Shown here piece by piece: positions 5,290 through 54,919 of a stretch of DNA of 64,000 nt (the first letter of the stretch is position 1; every line of letters begins with the position of its first letter). The notes under the pieces are model-generated. The model did not search any database, was not told the DNA's origin, and saw only the letters and a program-made list of their open reading frames with translations. Source of the DNA: Ceratodon purpureus (lineage: Eukaryota > Streptophyta > Bryopsida > Pseudoditrichales > Ditrichaceae); assembly GCA_014871385.1 (NCBI GenBank), contig CM026429.1, positions 14,173,783-14,237,782 on the forward strand, in the 5' to 3' direction. A program made the translations under genes and the position numbers.

Positions 5290-5454
5290 CTACAATACAA
5301 AGAGAAAACAAATAATAAGAAATCAACAAAAAACACCAAACAACAAGAAGAAAGCAACAGTTGACATTTAAACATATTCATTCCCCAGATATAATTCTTC
5401 TTGTTTTTAAAATAAGCCCCCTTCTCCCCCTCCTCCTCCCCCATTCCTCCCCCA

Positions 5455-13691: not shown

Positions 13692-13930
13692 AGGGAAGCT
13701 TGTACGTGAGCGGAGAGCGCAGAGCGGAGAGCGGTGAGCGCAGATTTGGAGAGCGGAGAGCACAGAATGGGGGACAGAACCTAAAAATAGTAACTTTTTA
13801 CTAAAATTACTAAAAATACATTATAAAATTAGAAGATCCGAATATTCTTAGTGTATTTTTGGAAAAATACTAATTTTAGTAATTTTATTGACCCTATAAC
13901 CGTGGAATAATTACAGTGTTTTCATTGAAA
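13692..13930 (+). repeat. Internal copy of the transposon terminus (left end of the inner element)
   Basis: Starts GAGGGAAGCTTGTACGTGAGCGG, comparable to the right end read inward (GGGGGAAAGTTCGTACGTGAGCGG), followed by the same GAGCGGAGAGC repeats and GAGAGCACAGAAT. It then diverges but regains the motif ACCCTATAACCGTGGAA at about 13,891. It is less similar to the outer ends than they are to each other. It interrupts the left 171-bp array in mid-unit. Confidence 0.8.
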
Positions 13931-14210
13931 TTGTAGTTCGTTTTCTCTTTTTTTTGATGATTAATTTTTTAACGTGCACCAATTACTATGCTCCAGCTCC
14001 TTCTAACTAGTTTAGGCATACATTAATTCCCTTTATCTCCTCAAATTTATATGCAAAATACCGCATAAAATGTATTGGTATTAAAGCTCTTAAGAGGGAT
14101 AAAGTAACATTTAATATCGTAACAATTTCTTAACATTGTTAGAAATCATCCGCCATGGTCTACATGGTTTATTTCTTTTATTCTTCATATTAACTTCCAT
14201 TACTCTATCT
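13931..14210. other. AT-rich subterminal region, no gene seen
   Basis: Interior of the element between its left terminus and the 17-bp minisatellite. No coding sequence or RNA gene recognised. Confidence 0.5.
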
Positions 14211-14885
14211 ATCTTTCCTTTCCTTTAATTCTCTTTCATTTTCTTTTCTCTTTCATTTTATTCTCTCTTTCATTTTATTTTTCCTTTCATTTTATTTTCT
14301 AGTTCCTTTTATTTTCTCTTTCATTTTATTCTCTCTTTCATTTTTTTTTCTTTCATTTTTTTTTCCTTTTCATTTTATTCTCTCTTTCATTTTCTTGTCT
14401 CCTTCATGATAATTTCTCTTTCATTTTATTTTCCTCTTCATTTTATTTTCTCTTTCATTTTATTTTGTCTTTCATTTTATTCTCTCTTTCATTTTATTTT
14501 CTCTTTCATTTTATTTTGTCTTTCATTTTATTCTCTCTTTCATTTTATTGTCTCATTCATTTTATTTTCTCATTCATTTTATTGTCTCATTCATATTATT
14601 TTCTCATTCATTTTATTTTGTCTTTCATTTTATTCTCTCTTTCATTTTATTTTCTCTTTCATTTTATTTTGTCTTTCATTTTATTCTCTCTTTCATTTTA
14701 TTGTCTCATTCATTTTATTTTCTCATTCATTTTATTTTCTCATTCATATTATTTTCTCATTCATTTTATTTTGTCTTTCATTTTATTTTCTCATTCATTT
14801 TATTTTCTCATTCATATTATTTTCTCATTCATTTTATTTTGTCTTTCATTTTATTTTCTCTTTCATTTTATTTTCATTTTCTTAG
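14211..14885 (+). repeat. 17-bp T-rich minisatellite (TTCTCTTTCATTTTATT)n
   Basis: A 17-base unit with TTCTC/TTGTC/CTCTC variants runs for about 650 bases with few interruptions. Because 17 is not a multiple of three, each unit shifts the frame, and all three forward frames read the same 17-residue Phe/Leu/Ser/Ile cycle without stops. The long overlapping frames here are therefore by-products of the repeat, not genes. Confidence 0.85.
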
Positions 14886-15097
14886 TCGCCTTCATATTAT
14901 TTTCAACCTTAATATTTATTTTTGCTTTTTTTCCTTTTAGCTTTTATAATTTTTTTAAAATTTTTTTTTTTATTTTTTAATTTTAAAAGCTAAATGACTT
15001 CTGCTCAACCCTCATCCTTTTCCATTCAGTTGAGGAAGATGCAACTTTCAAATGAATGAATATCCGATTTTCAAGGGCGCCAAGCATCTCCTTCAGG

Positions 15098-15108
15098 GAT
15101 ATTTAAGA
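15098..15108 (+). promoter_or_regulatory. Possible TATA-like element
   Basis: GGATATTTAAGATAAG lies about 80 bases before the ATG at 15,185 of the small ORF, a plausible core-promoter position. No other support. Confidence 0.3.
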
Positions 15109-15184
15109 TAAGAGTAGGGAATGTCTCAGCCTCTTTTGTGTTGGTGTTTTGTGAAGCTCTTTTCCGTAGTGCGGGACAACAGCT

Positions 15185-15637
15185 ATGGAAGACGTCAGAG
15201 ATATTGTTGTTTCACTTGCTGACGATGTTTGTCCATTTCAACCATATGTTGAGGTGGACGACGAAGAAGAGGTGATGGGCAACAGCCAAGGGCGTCCTTC
15301 GACAAGGGATGTTGACGTACAACCGGATGTAAGAGCTGACCCTCCACGTTCAGAAAATTCGGATGATATCAGAGTGCTAGAGAAGGACGCAGATGTGCCT
15401 TTGCAACCACATGCCTACTCGAAGGTTGGAAAGATCCCAAGGGGAACCTATTCCAGGGAATCAGTTAATCGGAGGCGGGGAGGTGGGCCATTGCTGAAAC
15501 GATCATTCCAAGGACATTTGCCAAGTGTGGGAACGAAAGTGAATGCGAATGTAGTTTCTCCTGTAGTACAGTCAGCGGCTGGCAGTCCTGCTGATAGTGT
15601 AGTGGGCAACCCTAAACGTGTTAGGTTCGAAGATTAG
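15185..15637 (+). CDS. Small acidic/basic-tailed protein carried by the MULE
   Basis: Intronless 150-codon frame, family not recognised. The N-terminal half is acidic (VEVDDEEE near residue 25), the middle has a basic GTYSRESVNRRRGGG patch, and the C-terminus is NPKRVRFED. KRVRF fits both a short nuclear-localisation signal and the RVxF docking motif of protein phosphatase 1; both are pattern matches only. It lies inside the inner element, just before and convergent with the transposase, so it may be an accessory transposon protein. MULEs often carry a second gene (for example mudrB of maize MuDR), but I see no similarity I can vouch for. ATG at 15,185 is the first in frame. Confidence 0.55.
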   Translation: MEDVRDIVVSLADDVCPFQPYVEVDDEEEVMGNSQGRPSTRDVDVQPDVRADPPRSENSDDIRVLEKDADVPLQPHAYSKVGKIPRGTYSRESVNRRRGGGPLLKRSFQGHLPSVGTKVNANVVSPVVQSAAGSPADSVVGNPKRVRFED

Positions 15638-15891
15638 GACATCTAATAACAAGTATATGTTTGCCTTAATAAAGGGTACATGTCAGGGGATACGAGGTAT
15701 ATAGTGCACTTCTTCAAGATACAATGTATTGAAATAGAATGCAATCAATGTGAACGCCAAAGCCTTTAATATAATGAAAAAGTCAATACAGCTACTCAAT
15801 AGCTGACTTAGTATATGGTATATTACTAAAATCATTCACTACGTGACAAATGGCCATTGTGGAAATGGAAGTTCTAAAGTAGGAGGGCTAC
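15638..15891. other. Convergent 3' region
   Basis: Between the ends of the small plus-strand ORF and the minus-strand transposase. AT-rich, no gene seen; presumably holds both 3' untranslated regions. Confidence 0.4.
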
Positions 15892-18800
15892 CTACTTCTT
15901 CGCCAAGGGGTGACGCAAGATTCCACCCTCTAAGAGTAGCTTGACCTCGTTGAAGCTGAAGGTAGGCGCATGGATGAAAAGCTCCGCTTCGGGATCACGG
16001 TTGCAGACCTTCAAGAATATGTAGTATAGGTGCTTACAATACGTGAACTGAGTCTTCCCACGGAACGTAGTCATTGTCTTCTTGAATGCTGGGCAAGTGC
16101 AACCAGGGTAAGAACTGATGGTAATCTGGTACCGTGTGATGTGTGGAGCGACGCCGGAATCCAGCCCAATGATGCAACCGTGGCCCGGCTCAGGTATCAT
16201 GGTGATGGAACGGAGGCGCGCTTTAAGAGATTCGGAGGAGCCCATGGAGAGTCGCTGCGCTTGATTGGGACGAGTGGCAGTGCGCTTCACCATCTTGCCG
16301 TCTCTCTTGCCTGGGTAGCGGTCAGCGTCTGCAGGGACTGGCACTGAGCTGAGATTTGCAGGAGGCGGGGCTGAGGAGAAGAGGCGTCTTGGGGAGACCG
16401 GTTTCTTCTGCGGAAGTTGAAAGCCCGCTGCTTCGAGGGCAAGAATCTCAGTAAGTTTTAGGTTAGTACCTAGTTTCACTGGCCACACCTCTGGAATGGA
16501 GGGGAATTCCTGGTCCTTTGAGTAGTGTGCTACCCACTTGCGCTTAGAGCCTTTCACGCAACGCTCAATATCGTCGGAGCAGAAGAAGAACTCAGTCTTC
16601 TCCACTAGGTTCCTGCGATAGTTAGTCCAGAGCCCAGTGTAGGTCGGTGCAGCTGTGCAATGGGGCCCCCTGACGATTCTCTCAGTGCACTTCTTCTTCG
16701 TTTCAGCTCTTTGGGCCCAGCAGCACTTCGCAGAAAGTTTGTGAAGTCTCGAAATGTGCCACTCCTTCACGTCCACCTTGGTTTCTTCAACCGCGTTGAC
16801 ATGGCGAATGCCGCCCTTGTTCACAGGTGAAGGTAAAGGGGAATCAACTTCCAGGGCAGGAGGTTGCGTACATTGTACCTCGGTGTCCTGTTCGGAGTCG
16901 TCTTCCACAATGACGGGCATCTGCATAGGGCGAGCCCTGACGGCACGTCTTGGGCCTCTTGGGCGTGAGAAGTTGGTCTTATCCGGGCGATGAGACTCTT
17001 CGTCAGCTCCGATAAGGACGTCGGCTTTTCGCTTCTGTGAACCGAAGACTTCCGCTCCTGGCATGATAGGCTGACGGGTGCAGAACTCATCCGCGCCTGG
17101 CATATCGAGCATGGGCTTGTCGAGCAGTGTAGGATTTCCCCATTTCTTCGCGTTGCGTTCCGCCATCCGAAGCCTGAGTTCCTTCTTGGACGGTCCTGTT
17201 CCGCCGACGTCACCTTTGAGGAACTGGTAGTAGTTGACAACCTGTAGAAATGCCCGAACGAAATCGTCCACGGTAGCAACGTAGAGGTCGTTCCCGTTGT
17301 TTCCTGAAGCTTGGAGCCACTTGTTGTGAACTGTTTCGGCGAGGTTACAAGTGGGCATCTCTGTGAGTTCTTCTTTCGTGAATTTGTGCAGATTTGACAG
17401 TAGGTGACGTTAGATTCACGGATTAGAGTTCTGTAGGTTAGGGCTAAGAAACCAGTATCAAAAACATCAAAACAGAGTGCAGAGATTATACCTCGGTCAT
17501 GAATCCCCCCCCACTGGCGGAAGCGGTGGTGCCAGAATGACAGCCACTGATCGAGTTTGATGAGCCCGCTCTCGCCAACGACCCCGGTGGATGCCCACCA
17601 TGCTCGCAACGCGTGGTACAGAGTTTCCGCCTCTGCCATGCTGGTCGCATTCTTGTACTGAGTGCACATCTTCTTGTGCTGTTCCCAGAGTTCTTCGGGG
17701 AAGTGCTTCTGCGTATACGCCACCATGTTCTGAGTCCAGTGGAACAAGCACGACCTCTCCCGGTCCTCCATTGGGTCTTCTTTGTTGCCATTGCCGTAAA
17801 GGATTCGCACTGCATTCCAATTCGCCTGTGCGTTATCCGCCATGAACCCCTTGAAGTTCGGCGCTTGCAACGCCATTGATCTCCATAACCAGGTTCAGGT
17901 TTTTCCAGAAGACGAGCTGGGCGTCCGTGTCCTCGGACTGCATGTCGCAAGTGGCGATTGTCATCACGCGGGAGTAGGTGGCGTCGTACACATGGCACGC
18001 CATCGTCGACCAATCTTTGACGCGTTTGACATGGTCGAACATGATCCATGCGTTCTCCAAATCGCCACCAGCTTGCATACGGCTGACCAAGTCGACACCA
18101 CTGCCCGGCCCGACCTCCGACATCTTGAAGACAAAGACTTTGTCACGCATAGATCCCTGACCAGGAAACCTATTCTCCTGGACATACGCCCAGAGACTGT
18201 TACCACGGAGCTTGGTGATACCGTCCATGATTCCGTACCTTACGAATTTTTTGAAGGTGGCGACTTTGTTGCGGATGTTGGGCGACGCCATGTCTTTGCA
18301 ACGATCCAGAACAGGAACCAGCTCCTCCATCGTCAGTTTCCTCGGTGGTGCATCCTCGGGCTGTAGAAGGTAGCTCCCGATGAGGAGTTTGCTCGCCTCC
18401 AGGACAACGGCGCTCTTCGTTGCTTTGTTGTTCATCTCTACCTGCTCTTCTATTAAGCTACTAATCTCTGCTTTAGAGTCTCTGTAGTCTCCAACTTTCA
18501 CTGGATGATCATGTGTTCCTATGTGAATACACGCTCTAGTCTGATTCGGTTTGCCCACAACGTAATAAATCTTAGCCTCGCATGTAGCTACACATGATGG
18601 AGGTTCTTTACATACCTTGCACACTAGCGTGGAGTCAGATGGAGGAGGCTGGTCCATGACAAAAGCTTGCAGGGTACAGCCTTCGAACTCAGTTTCGTTG
18701 ACCTCGAAGATCTTGGGAACACGCTTGAGAAAGTCACACTCCTGGTTGCTGCACCGGAGCCATCCGACGCAGGTGGAACTTCGAAAAGAGAGTCCGAAGT

Positions 18801-19650
18801 CGTTTTTGATGTTTGTTGTGATGGTCTTGGTCCACAAGTGTCCGTCGTATCGTTTGTCCATTCCCTGCATAGACTTGGCGGCGAGCTTAGAGGAACCTGC
18901 AGCAGCTGGGGGCAACTCAAAAAGAACCGGACCATCAAACTTCGCAGGCAAGTACTCAACTCTCTCGTGTCTAATAGTGGAATAGTCTATCTTCTTCAAA
19001 ATGTTTTTGGACCCACGCGTCTTAGCAATCTCTTTAAGGAGCGGAACAATGCTAACTGTGACCTGGGACAATGAAGGAGACACATTGGAAGGAGGAGCAT
19101 CTGCATGGACCTTAGGCACCAACTTCACGGGACTGACTTCGTCATCAGAAGAGAGAGATATGACGGTCGGAGGAGGTTTCTCTACATCTGATGTCTCGGT
19201 ACCAGGCTCGACTTTGACTTTGACATCACGAGGTAAGGGAGTCTGAATTGTGCAAGTAGAAGAGCGACGGGGGGTGAGGATCTCAGTGGATGCAGCCATA
19301 AGAGAATCAGTAAGACCATAGACTCTATAGGATCCAGGGAGGAGTCTCCACTGCAACATGTTGTTCTCATCTCTCACTGAAGGTTGCCCGAGGGTGTGGG
19401 TAACCTCGGCAGTAACGTCATCAAAGATCTCCTCCTCTATACTAATGGAATCCTCTCGAAAATGGAATCTGAGACTGAGGCGAAGAGAGGACACCGTAGC
19501 TAGACCATCGTCATCTACGCGAAACCTAAGAGGGATGCCCATGCCTTGGGCGTACAGACAGACCATCCCCATATTCGCCGGCAACTCAGAGATACTAGAG
19601 GAAGAACGGAGAAGAGTGAGTGTACTACCCAAGCTGTATCGCGAGAGCAA
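15892..19650 (-). CDS. Mutator-like element transposase (GCM1/WRKY-type zinc finger, DDE core, SWIM finger)
   Basis: In order on the minus strand: an N-terminal region with VKVEPG and VISLSSDDE; a GCM1/WRKY-type zinc domain (VGWLRCSNQECDF ... ACIHIGTHDHPV); the DDE core with first Asp in YDATYSRVMT and second in FMADNAQANWN, and the MULE C-x2-H (CLFH); MPTCNLAETVHNKW; and a SWIM finger CTCPAF ... YCKHLYYI. One intron is clear: donor GAG/GTATAA at 17,491, acceptor CACAG at 17,361, joining GGIHDR to EMPTCNLAE in frame. Near 17,861-17,880, between the two Asp motifs, the frame must shift by one base, so this copy is frameshifted or the assembly has an error. The true start is uncertain: 19,650 is a TTG, and the first Met of the open stretch begins MGMVCLYAQG. 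It should bind the element ends and catalyse cut-and-paste transposition. Confidence 0.9.
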
Positions 19651-20368
19651 AGTGAGAGGAATGATGCATCGCTGTTGATCATTTTATTCAAATTGGAATG
19701 TCCATGTGGACGACTAGGTAATGATTCATTCTGCTACGTAACGAATGTATGATTAAAGAGAGACGGCGCTAACTGATTGGAATGTGCTTTTTGCAGGCCC
19801 ATAAATATGTGGTTAGATTTTCAGAATATTGCTTTAAGTGTTTAAATCGTGGAGCAAATTCTATTTTTTATGGGGTGTGATTGGATTAAAAAGAGCCGTC
19901 TTTTCCTTCTGCATTTAAAACAATACATATATAGAATTTGAATTAATCATATTCATGCATTAGTTATATATGTATAGGACTAATGCACGCATATGATTTA
20001 TTCAAATTCTATATTTTATGCAGTGTAAGGGTTGCTCAATTTTCATAATAGATTGCTGGACGGACAGACTGTGAGTGAGATTAGTGTGAGCCGTCACTTG
20101 CATCCATATTTAATACAAGTATTCCTGTGCTTAATTCAAATCTTTTAATATTTTTTGGGCTTGGTTTATTCTCTTCAAATATAGATTGATCATATCAGCT
20201 TTAATTCAAAATGCAATTCATTTATAGTTTTTATTAATTTAAGTAGGTTTAGAATATGGGAAGTATTTAGGGCTAAGTCAGAGGGGCTGAAGGTTTGGGA
20301 TACATAAGTTGGAGGGAAGTTAGGAGGAGAGCTATATTGTGAGGAGAGTTCTCTCGTGAGTTAGACAT
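19651..20368. promoter_or_regulatory. Divergent promoter region between transposase and cargo gene
   Basis: About 720 AT-rich bases separate the minus-strand transposase from the plus-strand cargo gene. No start-site motif can be assigned with confidence. It holds the palindrome at 19,929-20,013. Confidence 0.5.
19929..20013. repeat. 85-bp palindrome (inverted repeat)
   Basis: Left arm TATAGAATTTGAATTAATCA... and right arm ...TGATTTATTCAAATTCTATA are near-perfect reverse complements of about 35 bases around a short TATATATGTATA centre. Could form a cruciform or be a tiny foldback element. Confidence 0.75.
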
Positions 20369-23300
20369 ATGAAGGAGAGTGGAGGGTCAGCTCCCTCCAC
20401 TTATGTCACTCCTAGTCGTAGAAGAAAACCAGGTGGTACAGATTTTACTAACAGGAGATCGAGGAAGAGGAGAGAATTACGTAGGAAGTCAAAGTCGAAA
20501 GGCAACCTCTTGAGTGCACCTCTAAAGGTTAGAGGAGCTGGGCTGCCTGTGGCAATTAAATTTTGTAGCATCCGTAAACTCATTCTAGAGTCCATAGTAG
20601 AGGCGGAAGAGGAGGTTTTAGAGGATACCGCAGTTGAGCATGAGGACCATGAAGTAATAAGTAGCGGAGAGAAACATCTGGAGATGACGGAAGAGCTAGG
20701 GTTCAATTGCAGTCCGACTTTGGAGACACCGCAACCGTCTTTCGGATTCAAGGAGTGTTCCACAAGAGGGACGCATTCTCAGTCGGGCGACCATTCTAAC
20801 ACGGATGTGGTAAGTTTCATAATCGATTCATTAGAATATGCTAAGTGTAAGTAATGTATTTTTTAGAGTTACCTTCATTTATATGTAATGTCTTCGCATT
20901 CACATATTTTACTGTTTAGAGTACTGATGGCGCATCAAACCGAGTGGTGGTTTACAATACGAGAGTCGATGTATCCATACTCGTCATAGTCTTACATATT
21001 TGTGCAGATTGGCGATTGGTTTAGGATTGAACAAGAGGTTGTAGAGGAAAAGACGCCAGAAGTGGATGCGGGCGAGGAGTCAGATCCTGAGACATTGATA
21101 AGACTGGCTCGTAGAGCGAGACGCGAAATTATGGAGGCGGGCGAAGGAGGGGAAGCTTTGGTTGCACTACGAGAGGGTCGAGGGGACCCGGGAAGCCCAT
21201 CTCAGATGAGTGTGGATGACAACCAATCGCAGGGTTGGATGGCGGGGCCGGTAGAAGACATTGAGTGTGAAGAGGTCGTGAATGTGGATAGAGGCCGTGG
21301 TCGACGGAGAGGTGCAGGTGCTCGTGGGAGAGGGAGAGGACTAACTCGTGGGAGGAGTACCTGTGAGGCAGCATCCACACTCGCATCCGCGGCAACTGAC
21401 CGTGGGGAGGAAGAGATGGAGAGGGAGCATGGACCTGAGCGTGGGGAGGTAGAGATTGAGAGCCAGGGCGGGGAATCCGATCGAGCACCGGCCACTGACG
21501 AGGTAAGAGTTACGGGTTTTGTTGATGATTTTATGTGGGAGGCCGCGTGATTGGTACTTGGGGATTGAATGTGAGTAGCAGATAGATCCGCATTGTGTGA
21601 GGTTGAGGGTGCGGAAGACCCTGCTGTCACTGCTGCAAGTGAGTAGCTCGGAGTTGCGATTCCGATGCCAGACGCAGCCGCGACCCAATAGGTCGAAGTT
21701 GCGAACCATCTAGCTGCAGATGCAGTGAATACCGAGATAGGGGTTTGGACCCATATTGCAGCCCCGGCCGCATTGAGAGAGATTGGGGTTTCGGAGGTGA
21801 CAGCAGCCATGGCCGCATGGACAGAAGTTGGGGCTGCGGAGGCAGTTGCCCCACGCAACCAGAGGGAGGCCGCGGAGGAGAACCCCCTTGCGGAGGCCAT
21901 GGCCGCAGGCAGTCAGCTCGAGGCCGCGAAGGAGATGCCCCTTGCCGAGGGGCATTCTGTGAAGAATGCCTCCAAGGAGGTGGGGGCGGATTGCGGGAGT
22001 GGGGCTGCGGAGGCAGTTGCCCCACGCTACCAGAGGGAGGCCGCGGAGGAGAACCCCCTTGCGGAGGCCATGGCCGCAGGCAGTCAGCTCGAGGCCGCGA
22101 AGGAGATGCCCCTTGCCGAGGGGCATTCTGTGAAGAATGCCTCCAAGGAGGTGGGGGCGGATTGCGGGAGTGGGGCTGCGGAGGCAGTTGCCCCACGCAA
22201 CCAGAGGGAGGCCGCGGAGGAGAACCCCCTTGCGGAGGCCATGGCCGCAGGCAGTCAGCTCGAGGCCGCGAAGGAGATGCCCCATGCCGAGGGGCATTCT
22301 GTGAAGAATGCCTCCAAGGAGGTGGGGGCGGATTGCGGGAGTGGGGCTGCGGAGGCAGTTGCCCCACGCAACCAGAGGGAGGCCGCGGAGGAGAACCCCC
22401 TTGCGGAGGCCATGGCCGCAGGCAGTCAGCTCGAGGCCGCGAAGGAGATGCCCCTTGCCGAGGGGCATTCTGTGAAGAATGCCTCCAAGGAGGTGGGGGC
22501 GGATTGCGGGAGTTGGGGCTGCGGAGGCAGTTGCCCCACGCAACCAGAGGGAGGCCGCGGAGGAGAACCCCCTTGCGGAGGCCATGGCCGCAGGCAGTCA
22601 GCTCGAGGCCGCGAAGGAGATGCCCCTTGCCGAGGGGCATTCTGTGAAGAATGCCTCCAAGGAGGTGGGGGCGGATTGCGGGAGTGGGGCTGCGGAGGCA
22701 GTTGCCCCACGCAACCAGAGGGAGGCCGCGGAGGAGAACCCCCTTGCGGAGGCCATGGCCGCAGGCAGTCAGCTCGAGGCCGCGAAGGAGATGCCCCTTG
22801 CCGAGGGGCATTCTGTGAAGAATGCCTCCAAGGAGGTGGGGGCGGATTGCGGGAGTGCGGCTGCGGAGGCAGTTGCCCCACGCAACCAGAGGGAGGCCGC
22901 GGAGGAGAACCCCCTTGCGGAGGCCATGGCCGCAGGCAGTCAGCTCGAGGCCGCGAAGGAGATGCTTCTTGCCGAGGGGCATTCTGTGAAGAATGCCTCC
23001 AAGGAGGTGGGGGCGGATTGCGGGAGTGGGGCTGCGGAGGCAGTTGCCCCACGCAACCAGAGGGAGGCCGCGGAGGAGAACCCCCTTGCGGAGGCCATGG
23101 CCGCAGGCAGTCAGCTCGAGGCCGCGAAGGAGATGCCCCATGCCGAGGGGCATTCTGTGAAGAATGCCTCCAAGGAGGTGGGGGCGGATTGCGGGAGTGG
23201 GGCTGCGGAGGCAGTTGCCCCACGCAACCAGAGGGAGGCCGCGGAGGAGAACCCCCTTGCGGAGGCCATGGCCGCAGGCAGTCAGCTCGAGGCCGCGAAG

Positions 23301-24509
23301 GAGATGCCCCTTGCCGAGGGGCATTCTGTGAAGAATGCCTCCAAGGAGGTGGGGGCGGATTGCGGGAGTGGGGCTGCGGAGGCAGTTGCCCCACGCAACC
23401 AGAGGGAGGCCGCGGAGGAGAACCCCCTTGCGGAGGCCATGGCCGCAGGCAGTCAGCTCGAGGCCGCGAAGGAGATGCCCCATGCCGAGGGGCATTCTGT
23501 GAAGAATGCCTCCAAGGAGGTGGGGGCGGATTGCGGGAGTGGGGCTGCGGAGGCAGTTGCCCCACGCAACCAGAGGGAGGCCGCGGAGGAGAACCCCCTT
23601 GCGGAGGCCATGGCCGCAGGCAGTCAGCTCGAGGCCGCGAAGGAGATGCCCCTTGCCGAGGGGCATTCTGTGAAGAATGCCTCCAAGGAGGTGGGGGCGG
23701 ATTGCGGGAGTGGGGCTGCGGAGGCAGTTGCCCCACGCAACCAGAGGGAGGCCGCGGAGGAGAACCCCCTTGCGGAGGCCATGGCCGCAGGCAGTCAGCT
23801 CGAGGCCGCGAAGGAGATGCCCCATGCCGAGGGGCATTCTGTGAAGAATGCCTCCAAGGAGGTGGGGGCGGATTGCGGGAGTGGGGCTGCGGAGGCAGTT
23901 GCCCCACGCAACCAGAGGGAGGCCGCGGAGGAGAACCCCCTTGCGGAGGCCATGGCCGCAGGCAGTCAGCTCGAGGCCGCGAAGGAGATGCCCCATGCCG
24001 AGGGGCATTCTGTGAAGAATGCCTCCAAGGAGGTGGGGGCGGATTGCGGGAGTGGGGCTGCGGAGGCAGTTGCCCCACGCAACCAGAGGGAGGCCGCGGA
24101 GGAGAACCCCCTTGCGGAGGCCATGGCCGCAGGCAGTCAGCTCGAGGCCGCGAAGGAGATGCCCCTTGCCGAGGGGCATTCTGTGACGAATGCCTCCAAG
24201 GAGGTGGGGGCGGATTGCGGGAGTGGGGCTGCGGAGGCAGTTGCCCCACGCAACCAGAGGGAGGCCGCGGAGGAGAACCCCCTTGCGGAGGCCATGGCCG
24301 CAGGCAGTCAGCTCGAGGCCGCGAAGGAGATGCCCCTTGCCGAGGGGCATTCTGTGACGAATGCCTCCAAGGAGGTGGGGGCGGATTGCGGGAGTGGGGC
24401 TGCGGAGGCTGTGGCCGCAAGCAATCAGATGGAGGTTGTGGAGGAGACGCTCCTTCTGGAGTGGCATTCTGTGACGAATGCCTCCAATGAGAAGGGGGCA
24501 GCTGCTTAA
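20369..24509 (+). CDS. 5' exons of the cargo gene, including the 171-bp repeat exon
   Basis: Exon 20,369-20,809 (ATG; basic stretch NRRSRKRRELRRKSKSK near residue 30, then acidic; donor GTG/GTAAGT). Exon 21,008-21,502 (acceptor TTGTGCAG; an RGRGRRRGAGARGRGRG patch; donor GAG/GTAAGA). Both have lengths divisible by three. An optional 57-base exon may lie at 21,582-21,638. An exon from 21,692 (acceptor CAATAG) runs phase 0 into the repeat array, reading VEVANHLAADAV and then the Ala/Glu-rich 57-residue units (AEAMAAGSQLEAAKEM). An extra T at about 22,513 breaks this frame inside the array, where it passes into a Cys/Gly-rich frame. The AEAMAA frame resumes in register and ends with TAA at 24,507. 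No good donor joins it to 24,602, so it may be the N-terminal part of the same protein or a separate product. Functions of these domains are unknown. Confidence 0.6.
21820..24480 (+). repeat. 171-bp tandem array, 16 units
   Basis: The marker GGCAGTTGCCCC recurs every 171 bases from 21,841 to about 24,235; the last unit is degenerate. Units are very homogeneous, differing mainly at CCTT/CCAT in GATGCCCC(T/A)TGCC and AAGAAT/ACGAAT. On the plus strand it encodes AEAMAAGSQLEAAKEMPLAEGHSVKNASKEVG in the cargo gene frame. It shares anchors with the left array: GAGGCCATGGCCGC, GCATTC followed 25 bases later by GAGGTGGGGG, and ATTGCGGG. Confidence 0.9.
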
Positions 24510-24601
24510 GAATAATTTGATTGGATTTTAACTCTTGTTTTTAATTGTCCAATCATGTATTCATTTCAATTCTTATTATTTGTATACTTTATGTGTTGTA
24601 G

Positions 24602-27600
24602 GAGTTCACGGATCAACTCACTGCGACTGAAGCTGATGGCCCTACCCCTGCAGAAACAGAGGTAAATTAATCTTATTTGCCTTCTGTTTTGAATATCGCA
24701 TAGTACATTAACCCTCCAAAAGTGTTCATTTCATTTTGTAAATCTATAATTTGACACTGTCTTGTTTCTCTGCCTCTAGGTATTCTCAGATGCACCCTTG
24801 TCCATCAGTTCCCCGATCTCAGTTATCAATCTTTCCGATCTCTCGGATTCATTTGATCAGCCCCATTTATGTAGGTGTGATTTAGGAAACCCTGTAGACT
24901 TAGGTAGTGGACCTCCAGAGGTCCACTCTCCTCAGTACATGCCTACCTCTCCTGTCTATGAGCCTACATCCCCAGGCTACATGCCTACTTCTCCTCGGCT
25001 TGGTACCCCGCCGATGTCTCCACCTTCTCCTTCCTCGCCTATTAGAGTGAGGAGGCCAGCCCATGTTGTCTTCGCCCTCCCGGCGATACTACCATGCCCT
25101 GTCCAACAGACCAGGCGTTTTTGGAGGAGGCGCCGTCATTGGAACTGTAGACAGGCTAGGGAGTATTATAGCCGTGCTCCACGTACATAGTTGCGTATGT
25201 ACACCTTTCTACTGATGACGATTGGTATCAGTACATGAAACTATTGTTCTATTCTTTTTCATAATTGCATTACTTGTTTTTATCCTTATCTTTGAATCAA
25301 TTTTGAAAATGTAGTACTTCTTGCAGGTAACTCAGACACAGGATATAGTGCCAGCGCCATCTTGTCCTCCTGATTTGACGAATGTAGTGGACAGTGAATT
25401 GGAACATCGGGTACAACACAAGCAAGACTCCAACGGCGTCATCAATAAGCTCCGAATACTTCCAAAGACAAAGTCGCGTATCCAAGTTCCCCTTTGTAGG
25501 ATGCTCTCAATGGCAAGAGTGCGACCTGTAGGAGAAATGGGAGTTCAACATTTGGAGCATGAGTTTGTCAAAGGCTATAGAGATGGAGACCGTGTCATGT
25601 ACATTTCCATCTACAACCACGAAGAGAAGACAGCCGATGTCACTGAGGAGATCAAGGCTGACTGGAGCCCGTGTTGGCAAAAAGTTAATGATGCTTTTGA
25701 AGATGAGCTCTTGGCCGACCCGGATTGGAAGGAGTTCTCTGGGAAGATGTTCTATGTCTGGGAAGGTAACCATCGCCTTGCCGCATGGTACAGACATATC
25801 AACAAGCATCACAGCGACGATCCAGCGTGGCACATCTCTGTGCATTGCATTGTTCTTGACCCTCGCGGTCATGTTGGAAACCTTCTTCATGCCATGCATG
25901 ACATTAATTGGTAAGAATTAACTCTCTCTACTTTGTCTACACCTCTTGAACGCCGATTGAACTTGTACTTTATGCTTATTATTAACTTACGTCTATTTGT
26001 ACAGGTCAACGGAAAATGATCACGTGAAGAGTAATATTCCGGCAAAACTTTATCGTATTCGCTCCTTTGGTGTGATGAAATTGGAGGAATTCAAGGATCT
26101 GCTTTCACCACAGGAGTATGCTTTAGCATTGAATCACAAACCAGCTACTCCATCCTGGTTTACATTGCCAACAAAAGTATTCATCGCTTTTCTTTATCGG
26201 GTAAGCACTCATTCCTCCCCCCCCGACGCTTCCATTCGGCAATTGATTTACGGTGCTTCATATAGTTCCTCTAACATTGCTTTGTGTTCCAGCGAGAAAT
26301 TGTGGTAGCTTCTGACGAAGCTGCCAGAATCTACAAGGAGAAAACACCCATTGAAGAACAAACCGCGACTGGTATTTGGGATGCCATGAATGCGGCTTCA
26401 AACAACATGGTGGAATCGATTAAGAGGAAGGACTTCACCAAGTACTTGGCAATTGCAAATCCCAAGAATGGAGACGACTTCCTCAACGAAGTGAGACCCT
26501 CATCGTGCCTGAGTTCACTATTTTGTATCACAACAACATTTACGTATTCTTTTTTTCTAAAACTCCTGTACTTATTGCAGATTAATCGGCATTTCAGTGA
26601 CTTCTCAAAACCTGAGATGTCACTTGATAAGCTCCAGAAGATTGTTCCAGCGGCCGTTGAGGCCAAGTACAAGGCTCGTTGGTTGAGGTGGTGGAACTCA
26701 TCTCTGAGTTCCCGATTGTCTTACAGATTTCCACCACTTGAATTCAAGGATACCGAATTTGACCCATGGTTGAATAAGGCCTCATTCTGGGCTGGGGTAC
26801 AATTTCTTAAAAAACCTTTCCCATTACATTACGCATTACTCTCTTCGTCGATTCTTTCTCATTGCTAATTAATTGAATTCTGAATTACAGTTGGAGGAAG
26901 CCGTTATTAACACATTCGAGGACATATGCAAGACGGAGAACATCGTTATCAATTGGAAGGCCTTTCCGGAAGTACAAGAGCCGGGCGATTTTGTGGAGAG
27001 TTCACGTATTCTCTTGTGGGACAAGGCCTTCCCTACGTTCATTGGAAAATCGGCAGATAAGCCCTTCGACAAGAAGTCCATTTTTGCTAAATTTCCTGGA
27101 ACCGCTCAGGTTGTCAAGCGGGTTACTTACCGGTACGATACATTCCTTTTAATCAGATTCAAATTCCATAACGAGGTCTCTTTATCTCTTTGATACTAAC
27201 CTTCTACATATTGGTTTACATAGATACTTCAAGCGAGAGCTTCTTCTGAAGGGGGCAATCAAGGTTCAGCAGCTCCCCAACTACTTCCTTGCTTGGACGG
27301 AGAAAACCTCGGACCAGTGTATCTATTCTCCCCAACAGTTGAAAAGGTACAAAGCTCCTCACTTGCTTGAAGGATGCTGGTATCTTGATTGCTCTCGTGG
27401 TTTCACGATTGACTCAGAGGTAGACGTCAAGACTCTACACGATGGGGGTGAGGTTGTGGTGGAGGACTCCGTGGATGATGCAGAAGGTCGTGAAGGAGAG
27501 CAGGATCAGTCTTCTGCTCCACCACCGAAGAGAGGGAGAGGAAGGCGACTGAAATCTCTGCGTTCTCGGTCGGAGGCATCACAGCAAACTGGTGCGGAGT

Positions 27601-29299
27601 CTTCCGCGCCAGCTGAGAAGGCACCAGAGCCGTCTCCGGGTGTTGTCGTTACCAACCCTTCTCCAGCTTCTTCGCCGGCTCCTTCATCGATTAGTGCTTC
27701 GGAGATCACCAGAGGTCTCCTTCAGCAGAGGAAGGCCAAACTATATCCTCAAACAACTTCTTCCGCTGGAGCTTTGATTTCCACACATGTTTCCGTCTTC
27801 AACTCATCTGTGGATTCCATGTTACGGCGAAATAGGAGACAGGAGAGAAAAGGTGGCGACCCGGATTGGATCAAGACTCAAGACTTCATTCGCAAGGTTT
27901 GTTCCTATATTTTGACATTTAATGGATTCTGCCACCTCTACTCGCTATGTAGTTACTAACTCTGCTTTCTTGTTTCCTCAAGTTTGGAGCAGGCCGCGAA
28001 AACATTGTTGGGGACCGGTGCAAACAAGAGGACCATCTGGGAGTCGATTTGATCATTGCCGACATCCCTGAGAATCTTCCCGTCCCATCCGTTTCCGTTC
28101 CCCCCACGAGTATTCCGCCTTGGAACTCTCGCTACAAGGATTATTTGTACGACATCTTCCATTTTGCAGATGATTTCCTGCAGAAAGATGGTGCCATCTG
28201 CCTCATCTACAACACTGATCAGAAGCTGGCTAAGGATATCGAGGAAGAAGCTGCTAATGGTGGATACGTGCTGTTCAAGGACTGGTGGGGTGTCAATGTA
28301 CTCGGCCTGACTTCTCCTACGAACCCCGAGAACTTGGTACTTTTCCTGAACATGCCCTTCTCTTCGCTTACTGATAACCCTTCCGCTTCATTTTACTCAC
28401 TGGTTTTGCTTGACTGCAGACTATGCGATTCTGGATTCGCGTCTACGTTCGTAGTGGCAGTACTTTCTCCTTCCAGACGAAGAAGGAAGACCTGATACAT
28501 GGGCTCCTCAACATTACCGAGAGTGATGCCATTTTCAACTTGACCGATGTGGATTCGCAGCTCATGAATGGGGAGGTGCCGTGGAGAGGCCCAAGGGAGA
28601 AATCCATCGAGATGATGCAGGGCATACTTGAGGAGCTGTCGAAGCCCGGCGACATAGTTGTTGATTGGAATGCTGGGACAGGTAACTCTTCATGCATATC
28701 TTTGCTGAATTATTCTTCTCGTTTTTACCACAGTTTCTCATTTCTTTGTATCTCTCCGAGTTTCAGGAGCCTCCATCAAGGCTGCCCAGGCTACTGGTCG
28801 CCACATTCTCGCTTTTGAGGAGGACGAAGCCATATTCAACGCCCTTCTCAAACCATCCGCCATGGGCCCTCCTAAACATCCAAGGCCGGCAGCAACAGAC
28901 GAAGCGCCTCCAAAGAGACCAAGACCTGATAAGTGGTGTAAGTCTTCTATTCTTTGTTCAAATTATCCATGCGTTACTTGTCTTTGCAGCTCTACGTACT
29001 CGATGTAACCACAGTCGGTTCTCTATTGCAGAGTAGTTTCAGCAACACCTCCACGTGGGCCAACATCAGTGTCCACTCCATCCTGGCGTCTTCATTCCAG
29101 CCCGATTCAGCCTTTCATACTTCCGGACTACGCAGAGGACTTAGCACAGGCGTTTCAATCTGGAGCCCTTACATATGTTCCTAGTCGGCCAACTACTTTT
29201 GATCCCAGGGCCCTTCTATTCGTCGATGACGAGGCGGTAGAAGGAGATTCAGAGTCATCTAGTTCTGAGAGTGAAAGTAGCGACTGTAGCATGTTCTGA
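24602..29299 (+). CDS. Transposon-borne ParB-like / DNA amino-methyltransferase-like fusion protein with CTD-like motif
   Basis: Twelve exons splice in one frame to 1,162 codons: 24,602-24,661; 24,780-25,046; 25,327-25,910; 26,005-26,200; 26,293-26,490; 26,581-26,796; 26,891-27,132; 27,224-27,896; 27,983-28,336; 28,420-28,681; 28,767-28,937; 29,034-29,299. The last acceptor is the second AG of GCAGAG, since the first gives a stop. Domains: Pol II CTD-like YxPTSPxY repeats (exon 2); ParB/sulfiredoxin-like, with ARVRPVG and WEGNHRLAAWYRH (exon 3); helical region (exons 4-7); basic PPPKRGRGRR and Ser/Pro/Ala linker (exon 8); methyltransferase-like part, with ADIPEN at motif IV (normally DPPY), LQKDGAICLIYN, then EKSIEMMQ, PGDIVVDWNAGTG and GRHILAFEEDE at motif I. 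IV before I is beta-class order. An acidic Ser tail (SESSSSESESSDCS) ends it. DNA binding is likely; catalysis is doubtful given the altered motifs. Confidence 0.85.
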
Positions 29300-29436
29300 G
29301 TTTGAAGGAGGCTTCGGTCTATTGTTGTTTTCATTTGCTTTGATTTGATTTGATTTAATTGGAGTTCATTGCGTAATCCTTCGTCTACTCTACTACCCTG
29401 AATCTATACTTGTTACGATTCTCATTTCCAAATCGT

Positions 29437-30490
29437 CTCCTCCTATGTAGAGGACGGAATGTCACAACCGTAATGCTCAAAATATAATATGAAGAATGAA
29501 ATGTTACAAAAGAAACGCTCAAAATTGAAATTGCGCTGTAACTTATATTTTAACCATTCAAAATCCCACATTTCCTAACCATGTTACATATTCTTGACTT
29601 GGTGTACATCTTGGTTTCGGCTACTCCATTATTCTACACGAACTCAGAAATATTCCACGAACTTTTAAGACCATCTCTTTTAGTTGGTTTCGAGTTGTCT
29701 TATTCCTAAATCCTAAGGATTGTCTTCGAACACCCCGCTATACTTCACAGTACTAATCCTTCGGAGGATATACAGTCCAACTCTTGTCCATATTAAACCA
29801 GCAAGTTTCGCCATCCGATATGATCACTTCGGGCAGCTGAACAACTGGATTCTCATCGACGTTCGATAGCAAGGGATACGGGATTAGGGACAACTCCATA
29901 ATACGGAGAAGCTCATTGGTACAAAGCACTGTCCAACGCCATTCACCTTCACCAACATGGAGGCTTCCGATGTGCCTAAACGGTGGCAGGTCCATGCCTC
30001 GTTCCCTGGTGCGCTCCACCTCCAGCAGCCACGGCCGCAGCTCCTCATAACTCGCCGGTGCCTTTGGGGGCAAACCTACAGCCGCTCTCGTCCTCCTGGA
30101 TCTCGCATTACACACCTTCGGCATCGCGCAACACACTAAATTGTTGTAGTCTTAAAACGTTCCACGCAAGCCTACAAATTGACCCCCCCAAACTCCATCG
30201 CTACCTTCGCATACAGCACAGAATGCCAAGGACTGTATGACTATCCTAATACGCCACCTAGAGACAAGCTCAAGAAACCAAGAGTGACCTCCTTCTCTGG
30301 AACCCAGCTTACCAAGTGTTGTTTGATGATGAAAATCTCCTACTTGTATCACTCAAATGAAGATGCTTTGCTGCCTAGGAAGAGAGAGTAATCTTCGATG
30401 AAGACAAGGACTCTGACAAGGTATATCTTGGATTCAGCAGTTAAGATAATATACACGAATTTTGAAATATTCCAGGAAGTTTTCAAACCA
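29437..30490. mobile_element. About 1.05-kb insertion in the right arm, absent from the left arm
   Basis: The 3' flank of the intact cargo gene matches the left arm up to GATTCTCATTTCC (about 29,430) and again from TGCCTCCTTTACGTTC (about 30,490). In the left arm the two points are only some 20 bases apart (about 370-395). The intervening sequence was thus gained on the right or lost on the left. I could not define terminal repeats or a target duplication. Confidence 0.6.
29753..30136 (-). CDS. Hypothetical protein fragment inside the right-arm insertion
   Basis: A 127-codon frame, not recognised. It reads ELRPWLLEVERTRERGMDL, HVGEGEWRWTVLCTNELLR and GETCWFNMDKSWTVYPPKD; the Trp-rich, non-repetitive composition looks protein-like. 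A further open stretch upstream on the same strand (30,152-30,352) could be a preceding exon. It is probably a captured gene fragment or part of a nested element. Low certainty that it is expressed. Confidence 0.3.
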   Translation of the reverse strand: MCCAMPKVCNARSRRTRAAVGLPPKAPASYEELRPWLLEVERTRERGMDLPPFRHIGSLHVGEGEWRWTVLCTNELLRIMELSLIPYPLLSNVDENPVVQLPEVIISDGETCWFNMDKSWTVYPPKD

Positions 30491-30515
30491 TGCCTCCTTT
30501 ACGTTCTTTCAAATT

Positions 30516-30888
30516 TGTTTTTTCCCTTGTGCATTTACATAATCCTATGAAAGAATTACTTGTTTGATCTAAAACTCAACGCCTGATCATTGTATCTTGC
30601 CTAAACCCATGACAAATCTAAAGGAATGTATGCATGACGTCAGCATGACATCAGCCCTAATTTGTATCTTTGAGAACAAACGTAATAAATTCTTACCAGA
30701 GGTAATCCTAATTTCCACGGTAATATACTATTTTTCTAAAAAAAGTGTCTAAATTAAGCCTTAATTTAGTAATTTTCCACGGTTGTAGGGTCTACTTTGC
30801 CTTTGAAAATTTTCGTAATTGTCAATTCTGTGCTCTCCATTCTGCGCTCACCGCTCTCCGCTCTACGCTCTCCGCTCACGTACGAACT
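30516..30888 (-). repeat. Right terminal inverted repeat
   Basis: Reverse complement of the window start. It carries the CCACGGTTGTAGGGT form of the subterminal motif, GCATGACGTCAGCATGAC (a bZIP-like TGACGTCA site), and GCTCTCCGCTC repeats up to the end GTACGAACTTTCCCCCC. The cargo gene on the plus strand ends about 1.2 kb before it. Confidence 0.85.
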
Positions 30889-31110
30889 TTCCCCCCTCAC
30901 TAGCATGCCAAGCCGCGAGTTTTCCAAACCAGTCGACCAGGCCGACGAGAATCGAACCGCGGACCGGCTGGTTGACCACTGACGTATGAAATCAGCCGAC
31001 CAAGTCCACGACTTGGCGACTGTATCCGACATTCGATTGATTTTATTGCCTTCATTGACCAACCCGTATGATTTTATTATTTTATCCATATTATGTCGAG
31101 CGAGGAGGAG
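30889..31110. other. Spacer beyond the transposon end
   Basis: Moderately GC-rich sequence with ATCGAACCGCGG (a tRNA B-box-like string on the minus strand), but no foldable tRNA. Ends in the purine run GAGCGAGGAGGAG directly before a TGTTAAGAAA, as polypurine tracts end before LTRs. Confidence 0.3.
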
Positions 31111-52966: not shown

Positions 52967-53515
52967 CTGATCTGTGCCGGAGTCAGCCTGGCTGCATGGT
53001 TGGGAAAACGGCGCGTGGAGATGCTAGCGCGGGCGACGAGCGATAGGTTTTTTGCCTTCTTGCGATTGATCATGCAGATGAAGAACTACGTGGATCACGA
53101 AGCGGAATGCAGGGGCAGCGAGGTCGATACTCCATGGATTTCCGTTGTTTGTTATTCACCATGTCGTAGTTGTTATGATTATTAGAATCGGTTGACGACG
53201 GTAAGCTTACACTGTTGTTGAAGAGGATCGGCGCTGGTTGAGGAAATCAACGATGTGTTGAACAGTAGGAATGTATTTCAAGTAAACCTTGTCAGAATTC
53301 GTCAGGGATAGGAAAAGGTCATTTGTCAGCGAGACCCGTCAGCGAGCAGGTATCCATGTACTGCCCACAAGTCAGCCTGCTTGAAGTTTTGTTTATTTAC
53401 ATGTATCTGGTAATGCCGAATTTAATACAACAACTCTGTCTTAGGAGTCCATTAAATTCATGCGAAGAAAAAGATCCGTGATTCTTTTGCACTAATTTGA
53501 GGGTCGCCTTTTTCC
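52967..53515. other. Upstream region of the secreted-protein gene, no gene seen
   Basis: Contains short frames only. Probably promoter and spacer before the microsatellite. Confidence 0.4.
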
Positions 53516-54908: not shown

Positions 54909-54919
54909 ACTCTTTTCAG

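Follow-up and report, generated by a model that had tools for sequence, protein, structure and literature searches.

Results

The window, a 64,000-nt stretch of the Ceratodon purpureus genome, contains a spliced gene that was confirmed at 24602..29299. The gene lies within a large, plausibly MULE-like element (element B), and a second, inverted copy of it, missed by the earlier sequence-only reading, lies in a neighboring element (element A). The features are listed below.

about 520..5320, minus strand: second, inverted gene copy (element A), with a premature stop in exon 5
5447..13690, minus strand: tandem array of element A, 171-bp unit x 48, up to the start of element B
13691..30894, no strand assigned: whole MULE-like element B, 17.2 kb, matched to both ends by the C4 copy
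13691..13765, plus strand: left terminal inverted repeat, containing GAGCGGAGAGCG repeats (alignment to the right end, genome matches)
15892..17358, minus strand: C-terminal part of the transposase, SWIM-like CxC..CxH
17833..19650, minus strand: N-terminal part of the transposase with the start of the DDE-like region; this copy shifts frame near 17833-17876
20369..20812, plus strand: candidate upstream exon, a stop-free open frame in two other copies
21829..24447, plus strand: tandem array, 171-bp unit x 15.3 (repeat analysis)
24602..25190, plus strand: exons 1-2 of the sequence-only reading, with RNA-polymerase-CTD-like YxPTSP repeats; TAG-terminated frame
25327..25910, plus strand: exon 3, GNHRL domain, the "ParB-like" part of the sequence-only reading (genome copies, alignment)
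26005..26200, plus strand: exon 4 (frame joining)
26293..26490, plus strand: exon 5 (frame joining)
26581..26796, plus strand: exon 6 (frame joining)
26891..27132, plus strand: exon 7 (frame joining)
27224..27896, plus strand: exon 8 (frame joining)
27983..28336, plus strand: exon 9, methyltransferase motif IV region, degenerate (DIPE)
28420..28681, plus strand: exon 10, EKS / PGDIVVDWNAGT, SAM-binding side
28767..28932, plus strand: exon 11, GRHILAFEEDE; end inferred from the second window copy
29032..29299, plus strand: exon 12, C-terminal tail; frame kept in the second copy (omega 0.39), junction inferred
30825..30894, minus strand: right terminal inverted repeat (aligned to the left end)

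Structure of the gene

Exons 3-11 (25327-28932), joined through GT-AG introns, encode a single frame of 964 amino acids. The protein begins with a GNHRL domain, continues through a long middle region and ends in a beta-class amino-methyltransferase domain. All motifs quoted in the sequence-only reading were present: exon 3 has WEGNHRLAAW, exon 9 has IIADIPEN, exons 10-11 have EKSIEMMQ and PGDIVVDWNAGTG, and exon 11 has GRHILAFEEDE. The single frame of twelve exons given by that reading was not confirmed: it holds for exons 3-11, whereas exons 1-2 are out of phase and the junction of exon 12 is inferred. Exons 1-2 have an open frame of their own, with an omega of 0.08 for exon 2 when the window copies are compared. 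This frame closes at a TAG (25188-25190) common to both window copies, and the donor just ahead of this TAG leads into exon 3 out of phase. Exons 1-2 may be a separate upstream gene. Exon 12 was joined in frame only with the donor AA/GTGGTG after 28932, and an alternative donor led to a stop. The end of exon 11 was placed at 28932 because the second window copy has AA/GTATTG there.

The methyltransferase domain and its motif IV

Exons 9-11 matched the Pfam family N6_N4_Mtase (PF01555) with 34.4 bits (cut-off 26.7, E 2.8e-8) over model positions 146-218 of 221 only; the whole 964-aa protein scored 30.3 bits against the same cut-off. The family was found in 6/6 aligned family members (E up to 1). 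Alignment to phage beta-class methyltransferases with hhalign gave 99.0% (E 3e-18, 193 columns), and profile matches of the domain included DpnA and CcrM. Over these 193 columns, the beta-class pattern was observed, with motif IV before motif I, the G.G of motif I and the GR..IG.E strand. The C-terminal N4/N6 methyltransferase domain proposed from the sequence is supported by these profile matches.

The catalytic motif IV, (D/S/N)PP(Y/F/W), is absent. All four element copies read (B, A, C4 and C6) have DIPE, in which neither the catalytic aromatic residue nor the first proline of the PP pair is kept; in a weak DpnA alignment, IIADIPEN lies opposite IITDPPYN. Four paralogs have DQPY, DQPF (twice) and DTPF, where the aromatic residue is kept but PP is not. 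Methylation by the element protein is doubtful because its motif IV is DIPE and not (D/S)PP(Y/F/W).

Single motifs were counted in six frames of the window and compared with 10 Markov shuffles. PGD.V.D was found twice, once per gene copy (0.0 expected), the GNHRL-type pattern twice (0.4 expected) and GR...E four times (0.6 expected); the motif-I pattern alone was found twice vs 4.3 expected, which does not exceed chance. The profile match and a dN/dS of 0.22 between the two gene copies of the window (11 exons, dS 0.68) are stronger evidence for the gene than these single motifs, and on their strength a chance assembly of motifs was rejected.

The N-terminal GNHRL domain

Exon 3 has 62 invariant columns across 5 aligned sequences. 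The sequence-only reading had called this part a ParB/Srx-like domain on the single motif WEGNHRLAAW, an assignment that did not hold up as an established one. ParB_N (PF02195) had no Pfam match in 5 family members at E up to 10, and a search of the own genome for this family gave 0 matches, with the control detected in 10/14 genomes. Profile-profile comparison with 9 ParB_N sequences (hhalign, both profiles shallow) gave 0.1%, where unrelated profile pairs gave 1.4% and 0.1%; its 23 aligned columns do place GNHRLAA opposite GERRLRA. ParB matches were likewise absent from NCBIfam, PHROGs and PDB-sequence searches. A ParB identity of the domain is to be regarded as a possibility. DndB (PF14072), considered as another candidate identity, was hit weakly in 1/5 members at E=0.01, with 15.3 bits (cut-off 29.1).

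The element and its transposase

Homology of element B to the C4 copy stops at 13687 and 30894. The two match at 96.8% in the largest block and at 89-97% in other long unique blocks, with a differing array between. The terminal inverted repeats, a feature typical of MULEs though not shared by all, are imperfect and about 55-75 bp long. The first 29 bases of the left end had 417 genome matches (up to 2 mismatches) vs 0 with the reversed-pattern control. Among 30 loci picked by exact match to these 29 bases, the 30 bases before the left end were unrelated, with no column above 43%. The C4 copy is flanked by a 10-bp target duplication, TAACCTCGTC. Two exon-3-bearing copies also have duplications, of 9 bp at C1:9817030 (predicted from the left flank; the tenth predicted base differs) and of 10 bp at C1:23743099, where the right-end sequence was predicted from the left flank. 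The flanks of window copy B differ and show no target duplication. No duplication was identified for the C6 copy either, the left end of which was not found. Target-site duplications of MULEs range from 8 to 11 bp (PMC6446971). Where element B has its 171-bp array, the unit is 117 bp or 108/225 bp in two other copies, and the array sequence, which varies among copies, shifts the frame inside copy A.

The transposase frame spans at least 700 codons in 127/150 listed copies (N-terminal/DDE-like region), and its omega vs the C4 copy is 0.11. A SWIM zinc finger is common at the C-terminus of MULE transposases; here the SWIM match had E=0.1 and 12.6 bits, below the cut-off of 19.6. Pfam searches at E up to 10 gave no transposase family, either with the joined protein or with the DDE-like region. 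The D...D...CxxH layout was read by eye from the sequence. The transposase is transcribed divergently from the gene. The earlier designation as a plant MULE is plausible, judged from target-site length, terminal repeats and the weak SWIM hint, not from a transposase family match.

Linkage of the gene to the transposon and selection among copies

Exon 3 had 1900 candidate genome matches, of which 150 were scored, all at 88-100%; 136 of these 150 listed copies have no internal stop. Of 100 listed left ends, 22 are followed inward by a listed exon 3 of the same orientation (none in the opposite one; 0-1 in shifted controls), and 38 by a listed transposase on the other strand at a distance of 2-7 kb (none on the same strand; 0 in shifted controls). 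For 46/150 listed exon-3 copies, a listed transposase is head-to-head, 5.5-13.6 kb upstream (0 in the wrong orientation; shifts 0-2). No listed transposase partner was found for 104/150 listed exon-3 copies, and no listed exon 3 for 104/150 listed transposases. Exon 3 differs from that of the C4 copy by 5 synonymous and 0 other changes. These data, together with the dN/dS given above, show that the gene is an accessory gene of a high-copy, large TIR transposon, under purifying selection, with a constant position and an orientation opposite to that of the transposase. That a transposon carries the gene, as had been proposed, is borne out by the terminal repeats, the target duplications, the own transposase and the head-to-head linkage. 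Additional ORFs occur in MULEs (PMC6446971).

Exon 9 with its motif IV changes rapidly when close copies are compared (omega 0.83 and 0.71), so that part of the methyltransferase domain may be decaying, not re-purposed. The gene has 3 stops in exon 8 of the C4 copy, 1 in exon 6 of the C6 copy and 1 in exon 5 of copy A.

Relatives of the gene

In the own genome, a GNHRL exon lies upstream on the same strand for 49/57 related methyltransferase loci (0 opposite, 0 downstream, 0 shifted); this count used 149 listed GNHRL matches, without C12:10123686, the second piece of an exon already in the set. One of the 150 listed transposase copies, of at least that many in the genome, was found within 25 kb of only 5/57 of these loci, compared with 1-3 in shifted controls, and the idea that the loci are parts of the same element was rejected for most of them. 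The sequence-only reading had named an ordinary host gene away from MULEs as a finding that would refute it, and half of that picture was found: the relatives are mostly away from the listed transposase, and may be host genes or other mobile elements. A further lineage with long frames was found in 42 places. Its frames have 309-594 open codons, identity in the methyltransferase exon is about 33-35%, and a listed GNHRL exon lies upstream in 0/42, a count that may miss more diverged exons. Two introns of the element gene are absent from paralogs. The intron gain suggested earlier is possible on this evidence, and loss in the paralogs is equally possible.

At the sensitivity used, no relative of exon 3 turned up in phage records, prokaryote genomes or viral contigs, and the methyltransferase domain was only about 21-42% identical to phage proteins. 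Of five phage proteins checked, four have ParB_N followed by N6_N4_Mtase, with ParB_N above the cut-off in three of the four. The ParB_N fusion of Lactobacillus phage CR191 is one of 60 listed phage matches of the plant methyltransferase; six further matches picked from the 60 were all short stand-alone genes.

Discussion

The explanation that we favor, at a probability of roughly 40%, is that the gene encodes a DNA-targeted regulator of its own element, possibly anti-silencing and non-catalytic, and of plant-lineage origin. The methyltransferase domain would keep S-adenosylmethionine or DNA binding, as suggested by the retained motif I side and GR...E, and amino-group methylation would be lost or inefficient because motif IV is now DIPE. 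The protein may bind repeats of the element, either the terminal GAGCGGAGAGCG repeats or the internal array; the latter, with its sequence differing among copies and the frame change in copy A, would be a poor constant binding target. By analogy with VANC of the Arabidopsis VANDAL elements (PMC10398659), it could aid transposition or counter silencing. The gene would derive from a two-domain family that the plant lineage already had, rather than directly from a phage. Such a capture appears likelier than one from a phage because 49/57 relatives are two-domain and mostly away from this transposase, and because the searches of phages and bacteria gave no near relative. The order of events, with the gene family first and transposon uptake later, may possibly be reversed.

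A more far-reaching version of this regulator seems improbable: that the transposon, through a conserved loss of the catalytic aromatic residue, turned a beta-class amino-methyltransferase into a sequence-targeted, SAM-binding regulator that shields its many copies from silencing, in a lineage that has a larger two-domain family, some members perhaps still catalytic, with element and host versions perhaps in competition for the same DNA marks.

Among the alternatives, an active amino-methyltransferase deserves some consideration, unlikely as it is. An unusual but working DIPE would then allow adenine N6 or cytosine N4 methylation of element DNA, marking or protecting the element. Phage enzymes agree with the protein in beta-class order and spacing across the 193 columns, the four paralogs keep the aromatic residue (though Q or T replaces the first proline), and working transposon-borne 5mC methyltransferases are described in PMC5890265; against this, the catalytic aromatic residue and first proline are missing in 4/4 element copies read, and mutation of SPPY to APPA in rotifer N4CMT abolished activity according to PMC8885841. 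It is likewise improbable that the protein is a mudrB-kind transposition factor for cutting or integration with no silencing role. No methyltransferase fold is known to us to have a role in cutting, and the 104/150 listed exon-3 copies and 104/150 listed transposases without a listed partner argue weakly against such a factor, whereas the head-to-head arrangement in 46/150 listed exon-3 copies would suit it, as would the apparent requirement of mudrB for integration (PMC6446971).

That the gene is a passenger, a captured plant gene copied along with no benefit to the element, is less probable still. MULEs are known to carry pieces of host genes (PMC6446971), one or more stops interrupt the gene in each of the copies A, C4 and C6, and genes of the same architecture are mostly away from listed copies of this transposase; yet the frame is long with an omega of 0.22 between diverged copies (dS 0.68), the place and orientation are constant, and 136/150 listed exon-3 copies are without an internal stop. 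The sequence-only reading had proposed that the transposon directly captured a bacterial or phage gene with ParB-N and methyltransferase modules. The shared domain order of the phage proteins (4/5 checked), the CR191 fusion among the 60 listed matches and the alignment with phage enzymes are in its favor. The proposal is nevertheless very unlikely given the ParB_N comparison at 0.1% (unrelated pairs 1.4% and 0.1%), the short stand-alone form of the six other phage matches, methyltransferase identities of about 21-42%, the lack of any exon 3 relative in phage, viral or prokaryote sequence at the sensitivity used, and the large, mostly two-domain (49/57) paralog family in the same genome.

The phage fusions AcaML1 Gp25 and Javan38_0026 resemble the plant protein in having a C-terminal methyltransferase after a domain with a G..R.....A motif, but they are 392-431 aa long and have a ParB_N match, while the plant protein exceeds twice that length and its N-terminal domain has no such match. 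To our knowledge, VANC has no methyltransferase domain, and the known accessory genes of flowering-plant MULEs are without methyltransferase folds. The targets of VANC lie in noncoding repeats. VANDAL/Hiun elements share with the present element a further gene beside the transposase of a MULE, and fast-diverging internal tandem repeats (PMC10398659), to which the array units of 171, 117 and 108/225 bp bear a likeness; VANDALs are described as non-TIR in PMC13317346, whereas the present element has TIRs. Kaonashi and other Ulp1-carrying MULEs also contain a captured, strongly conserved enzyme domain (PMC13317346), which is Ulp1 there and a methyltransferase here. DNA-methyltransferase genes on mobile elements are described for dinoflagellate and charophyte retrotransposons (PMC5890265), but those are C5-cytosine enzymes, whereas here a beta-class amino-methyltransferase domain with an altered catalytic motif lies on a DNA transposon. 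Bacterial-type amino-methyltransferases in eukaryotes include N4CMT of bdelloid rotifers, with a PF01555 domain (PMC8885841), and the 4mC methyltransferase of Marchantia. N4CMT (SPPY) and the Marchantia enzyme are host genes with reported 4mC activity, in contrast to the transposon-borne DIPE gene.

In the one open-access literature collection searched, no description of a transposon with an amino-methyltransferase gene was found. MULE accessory genes are among the few known anti-silencing means of plant transposons. A high-copy moss element with an amino-methyltransferase-derived gene, together with many relatives of the same architecture, offers a system in which the use of a bacterial-type DNA-modifying fold by a transposon can be tested, and bears on the existence of N4 or N6 marks in moss DNA. 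The DIPE element copies and the aromatic-motif paralogs occur together in one genome, in which the active form, if any, could be sought.

Organization of the element and its ends

The methyltransferase-like gene of the window is part of a MULE-like TIR transposon, element B, of which further copies were found on contigs C4 and C6 of the same genome (C4 copy and C6 copy). A second, inverted copy of the gene (copy A, in element A) also lies in the window. The relevant features are:

~520–5320, minus strand: second gene copy (A), inverted
5447–13690: tandem array of element A, 171-bp units × 48
13691–30894, no strand assigned: element B, matched by the C4 copy out to both ends
14229–14875: 17-bp tandem repeat (TTCTCTTTCATTTTATT × 38) inside element B, beside its left end
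15892–19650, minus strand (opposite to the gene): transposase within element B
21829–24447: tandem array of element B, 171-bp units × 15
24602–29299, plus strand: spliced gene
24930–25030, plus strand (4830–4960, minus strand, in copy A): conserved RNA polymerase II C-terminal domain-like repeats of exon 2 (YMPTSPVYEPTSPGYMPTSP)

The C4 copy, which matched element B at 96.8% in the largest block, carries a different array mid-element, lacks ~500 bases of B near the right end, and has the 10-bp duplication TAACCTCGTC on both sides. At 30 loci selected because they carry the element's first 29 bases unchanged, the sequence 5′ of the left end was unrelated (no column of the 30 exceeded 43%), and the sequence after it was alike in nearly all. 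With up to two mismatches, these 29 bases occurred 417 times in the genome and 0 times in the control. In two exon-3-bearing copies, right-end duplications were foretold from the left flanks and then found where expected relative to exon 3. The copy at C1:9817030 showed a 9-bp duplication with a different tenth base; this search also matched a second place on C5 with two mismatches, and its reversed-pattern control gave 0 matches. The copy at C1:23743099 showed a 10-bp duplication without mismatch, with one match in the reversed-pattern control. The duplication length and the terminal repeats, which contain several GAGCGGAGAGCG-like units, are consistent with MULEs, for which target duplications of 8–11 bp are given in PMC6446971.

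No matching target duplication was found around element B itself, which is bordered on the left by the array of copy A and on the right by other sequence. Because element B starts at 13690/13691, exactly where the array of element A stops, and a matching duplication is lacking, a rearrangement or deletion that followed insertion probably brought A and B together. The arrays of A and B occupy the corresponding place and are unlike in sequence; in two other copies of the element, the array units measured 117 bp or 108/225 bp. Elsewhere in the window, a long open frame at 53497–54909 runs through a trinucleotide-like repeat tract and would read as polyserine and polyproline.

Linkage of the gene, transposase, and ends

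The fixed arrangement of gene, transposase, and ends was seen across the genome. Exon 3 was located 8.3–16.9 kb inward on the same strand in at least 22 of 100 listed left ends (opposite strand, 0; shifted controls, 0–1), and the transposase 2–7 kb inward on the opposite strand in at least 38 of these 100 (same strand, 0). The transposase was also found upstream and head-to-head in at least 46 of 150 listed exon-3 copies (wrong orientation, 0; shifts, 0–2). These counts are lower bounds, as 150 of 1900 exon-3 candidates, 150 of 2034 transposase candidates, and 100 of 417 ends were listed. Elements that lack the gene may exist too. Some copies are damaged, with three stops in exon 8 of the C4 copy, one in exon 6 of the C6 copy, and a stop within exon 3 in 14 of the 150 listed copies.

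The transposase evolves under constraint: relative to the C4 copy, its two parts have omega (dN/dS) of 0.11 and 0.17, and relative to the C6 copy, the values are 0.11 and 0.41. The window copy of the transposase does not read in a single frame; an open frame of at least 700 codons was present in 127 of 150 listed transposase copies. The C-terminal part contains one stop in the C4 copy, and two stops and frame gaps in the C6 copy. None of the Pfam transposase families matched the transposase, and there was a hint of a SWIM finger (E 0.1). Within the 362 Mb searched (151 contigs, with C6 as a single contig of 110.5 Mb), listed transposase copies were sparser on C6 (0.145 per Mb) than elsewhere (0.536 per Mb), and listed exon-3 copies were evenly spread (0.46 and 0.40 per Mb, respectively).

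Gene structure and the methyltransferase domain

The sequence-only reading described twelve exons in one frame. Exons 3–11 do join into an uninterrupted frame of 964 aa, but the frame of exons 1–2 closes with a TAG, and the donor ahead of this TAG puts exon 3 out of phase. The substitution pattern of exons 1–2 is that of coding sequence (exon 2 omega 0.08 between the window copies). Because the TAG is common to both window copies, exons 1–2 are suggested to be a separate upstream gene of the element. Over 11 exons, copies A and B differ with dS 0.68, dN 0.15, and omega 0.22; exon 5 of copy A holds a stop.

The proposed beta-class methyltransferase likeness of exons 9–11 was borne out. This METHYLTRANSFERASE domain matched Pfam N6_N4_Mtase with 34.4 bits (cut-off 26.7) over model positions 146–218 of 221. 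Six of six aligned members also matched this family. Profile comparison with six phage methyltransferases gave 99.0% (E 3e-18, 193 columns), and the motif order in the alignment with the phage enzymes was beta (motif IV first). Among solved structures, the profile search retrieved DpnA (E 9e-8) and CcrM (E 1.6e-5).

The catalytic motif IV of known enzymes is given as SPPY, DPPY, NPPY, or DPPW in PMC8885841. In all four copies of the element that were examined, namely B, A, C4, and C6, this position is DIPE. The four paralogs examined at other genomic loci carry DQPY, DQPF (twice), and DTPF, which keep the aromatic residue and lose the first proline; as this proline is not kept, methyltransferase activity of the paralogs is uncertain too. 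Between close copies, exon 9 changes fast (omega 0.83 and 0.71), and exon 10 is under more constraint (omega 0.26 and 0.29). Given DIPE and the fast-changing exon 9, the element version of the protein is unlikely to be an ordinary methylase.

The N-terminal GNHRL domain

Exon 3 is strongly conserved and encodes the motif FYVW(E/D)GNHRL.AWY, and an alignment of five exon-3 sequences (two window copies and three paralogs) has 62 invariant columns. Element B differs in exon 3 from the C4 copy by 5 synonymous and 0 other changes, and from the C6 copy by 5.5 synonymous and 6.5 other changes. As for the ParB-like signature noted earlier in this domain, GNHRLAA lay opposite GERRLRA within 23 aligned columns, but the comparison with nine ParB_N sequences (eight from phages and one other) scored 0.1%, with both profiles shallow and unrelated control pairs at 1.4% and 0.1%. 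Searches of Pfam, NCBIfam, and PDB sequences with exon 3 gave nothing above noise; DndB (Pfam) was reached by one paralog only, with E 0.01. With profiles this shallow, the domain may or may not be a distant relative of ParB/Srx proteins.

Possible function

Beyond the established element, fixed arrangement, domain, changed motif, and selection, we infer a function by analogy. We favor a DNA-targeted regulator that would work for its element, modelled on VANC, the accessory gene of Arabidopsis VANDAL elements (MULEs), which is described as binding tandem-repeat-forming noncoding regions of these elements and inducing loss of silent marks (PMC10398659). The candidate target could be either the GAGCGGAGAGCG-like units of the terminal repeats or the internal array, the unit of which varies between copies. 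A rival reading is an active methyltransferase enzyme, with the profile matches in its favor and DIPE in the catalytic position against it. The protein might also be a mudrB-like transposition factor or the product of a passenger gene. MULEs with extra genes are already known (PMC6446971, PMC13317346), as are retrotransposons with C5 methyltransferases (PMC5890265). Our search of one open-access library returned no DNA transposon that carries an amino-methyltransferase gene of the beta class, although the element may be named in the Ceratodon genome paper; in the main text of a 2026 review on how plant transposons capture genes (PMC13317346), "methyltransferase" has 0 occurrences.

Origin and related loci

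Direct capture of the two-domain module from a phage or bacterium, as the sequence-only reading proposed, has a precedent in phage proteins with ParB_N followed by a methyltransferase in the same order (both domains in 4 of 5 checked). One such fusion, from phage CR191, is among 60 listed phage matches to the plant methyltransferase; six others picked from the 60 are short stand-alone genes. Direct capture was not upheld: searches of phages, viral contigs, and prokaryote genomes, at the sensitivity employed, found nothing related to exon 3. The more economical reading is that the plant lineage had long possessed a methyltransferase of bacterial type, that this was fused to the GNHRL domain, and that one line may then have moved into the transposon. 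Spread the other way, out of the transposon to the other loci, is also conceivable.

A search with the methyltransferase exon of a paralog, with 150 of 727 matches scored, listed 57 related loci (48–100% identity; a stop in 10) and 93 others, mostly at ~31–38%. A GNHRL exon was present 1.6–5.5 kb upstream on the same strand in 49 of the 57 (none in controls). Among the other short-frame loci, 22 of 51 had it as well, and the controls gave 0 on the opposite strand, 1 downstream, and 0–1 after shifting. None of the 42 loci whose frames are long and unbroken had a listed GNHRL exon upstream, in a listing that may miss such exons. This long-frame lineage, with 42 places listed (e.g., C5:9684597 and C3:14974206), matches the motif-IV exon at ~33–35% and has frames of 309–594 codons. 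The 57 related loci do not generally neighbor the transposase of the window: a listed copy lay within 25 kb of 5 of them, compared to 1–3 in shifted controls.

The intron after exon 3 is missing in three of four paralogs inspected, the fourth being disrupted at this point; all four lack the intron between exons 10 and 11. Several sets of related loci have identical scores on different chromosomes, and one such pair, the paralog loci L038 and L039, shares 95.6% identity across 2967 bases, some of them noncoding; some related lineages may therefore be mobile too. At least one further multi-copy two-domain subfamily (C1:24168953, C4:4960193, and C8:12759307, with C1:24164125, C4:4955365, and C8:12764120) is probably mobile as well, because several copies have identical scores on different chromosomes.
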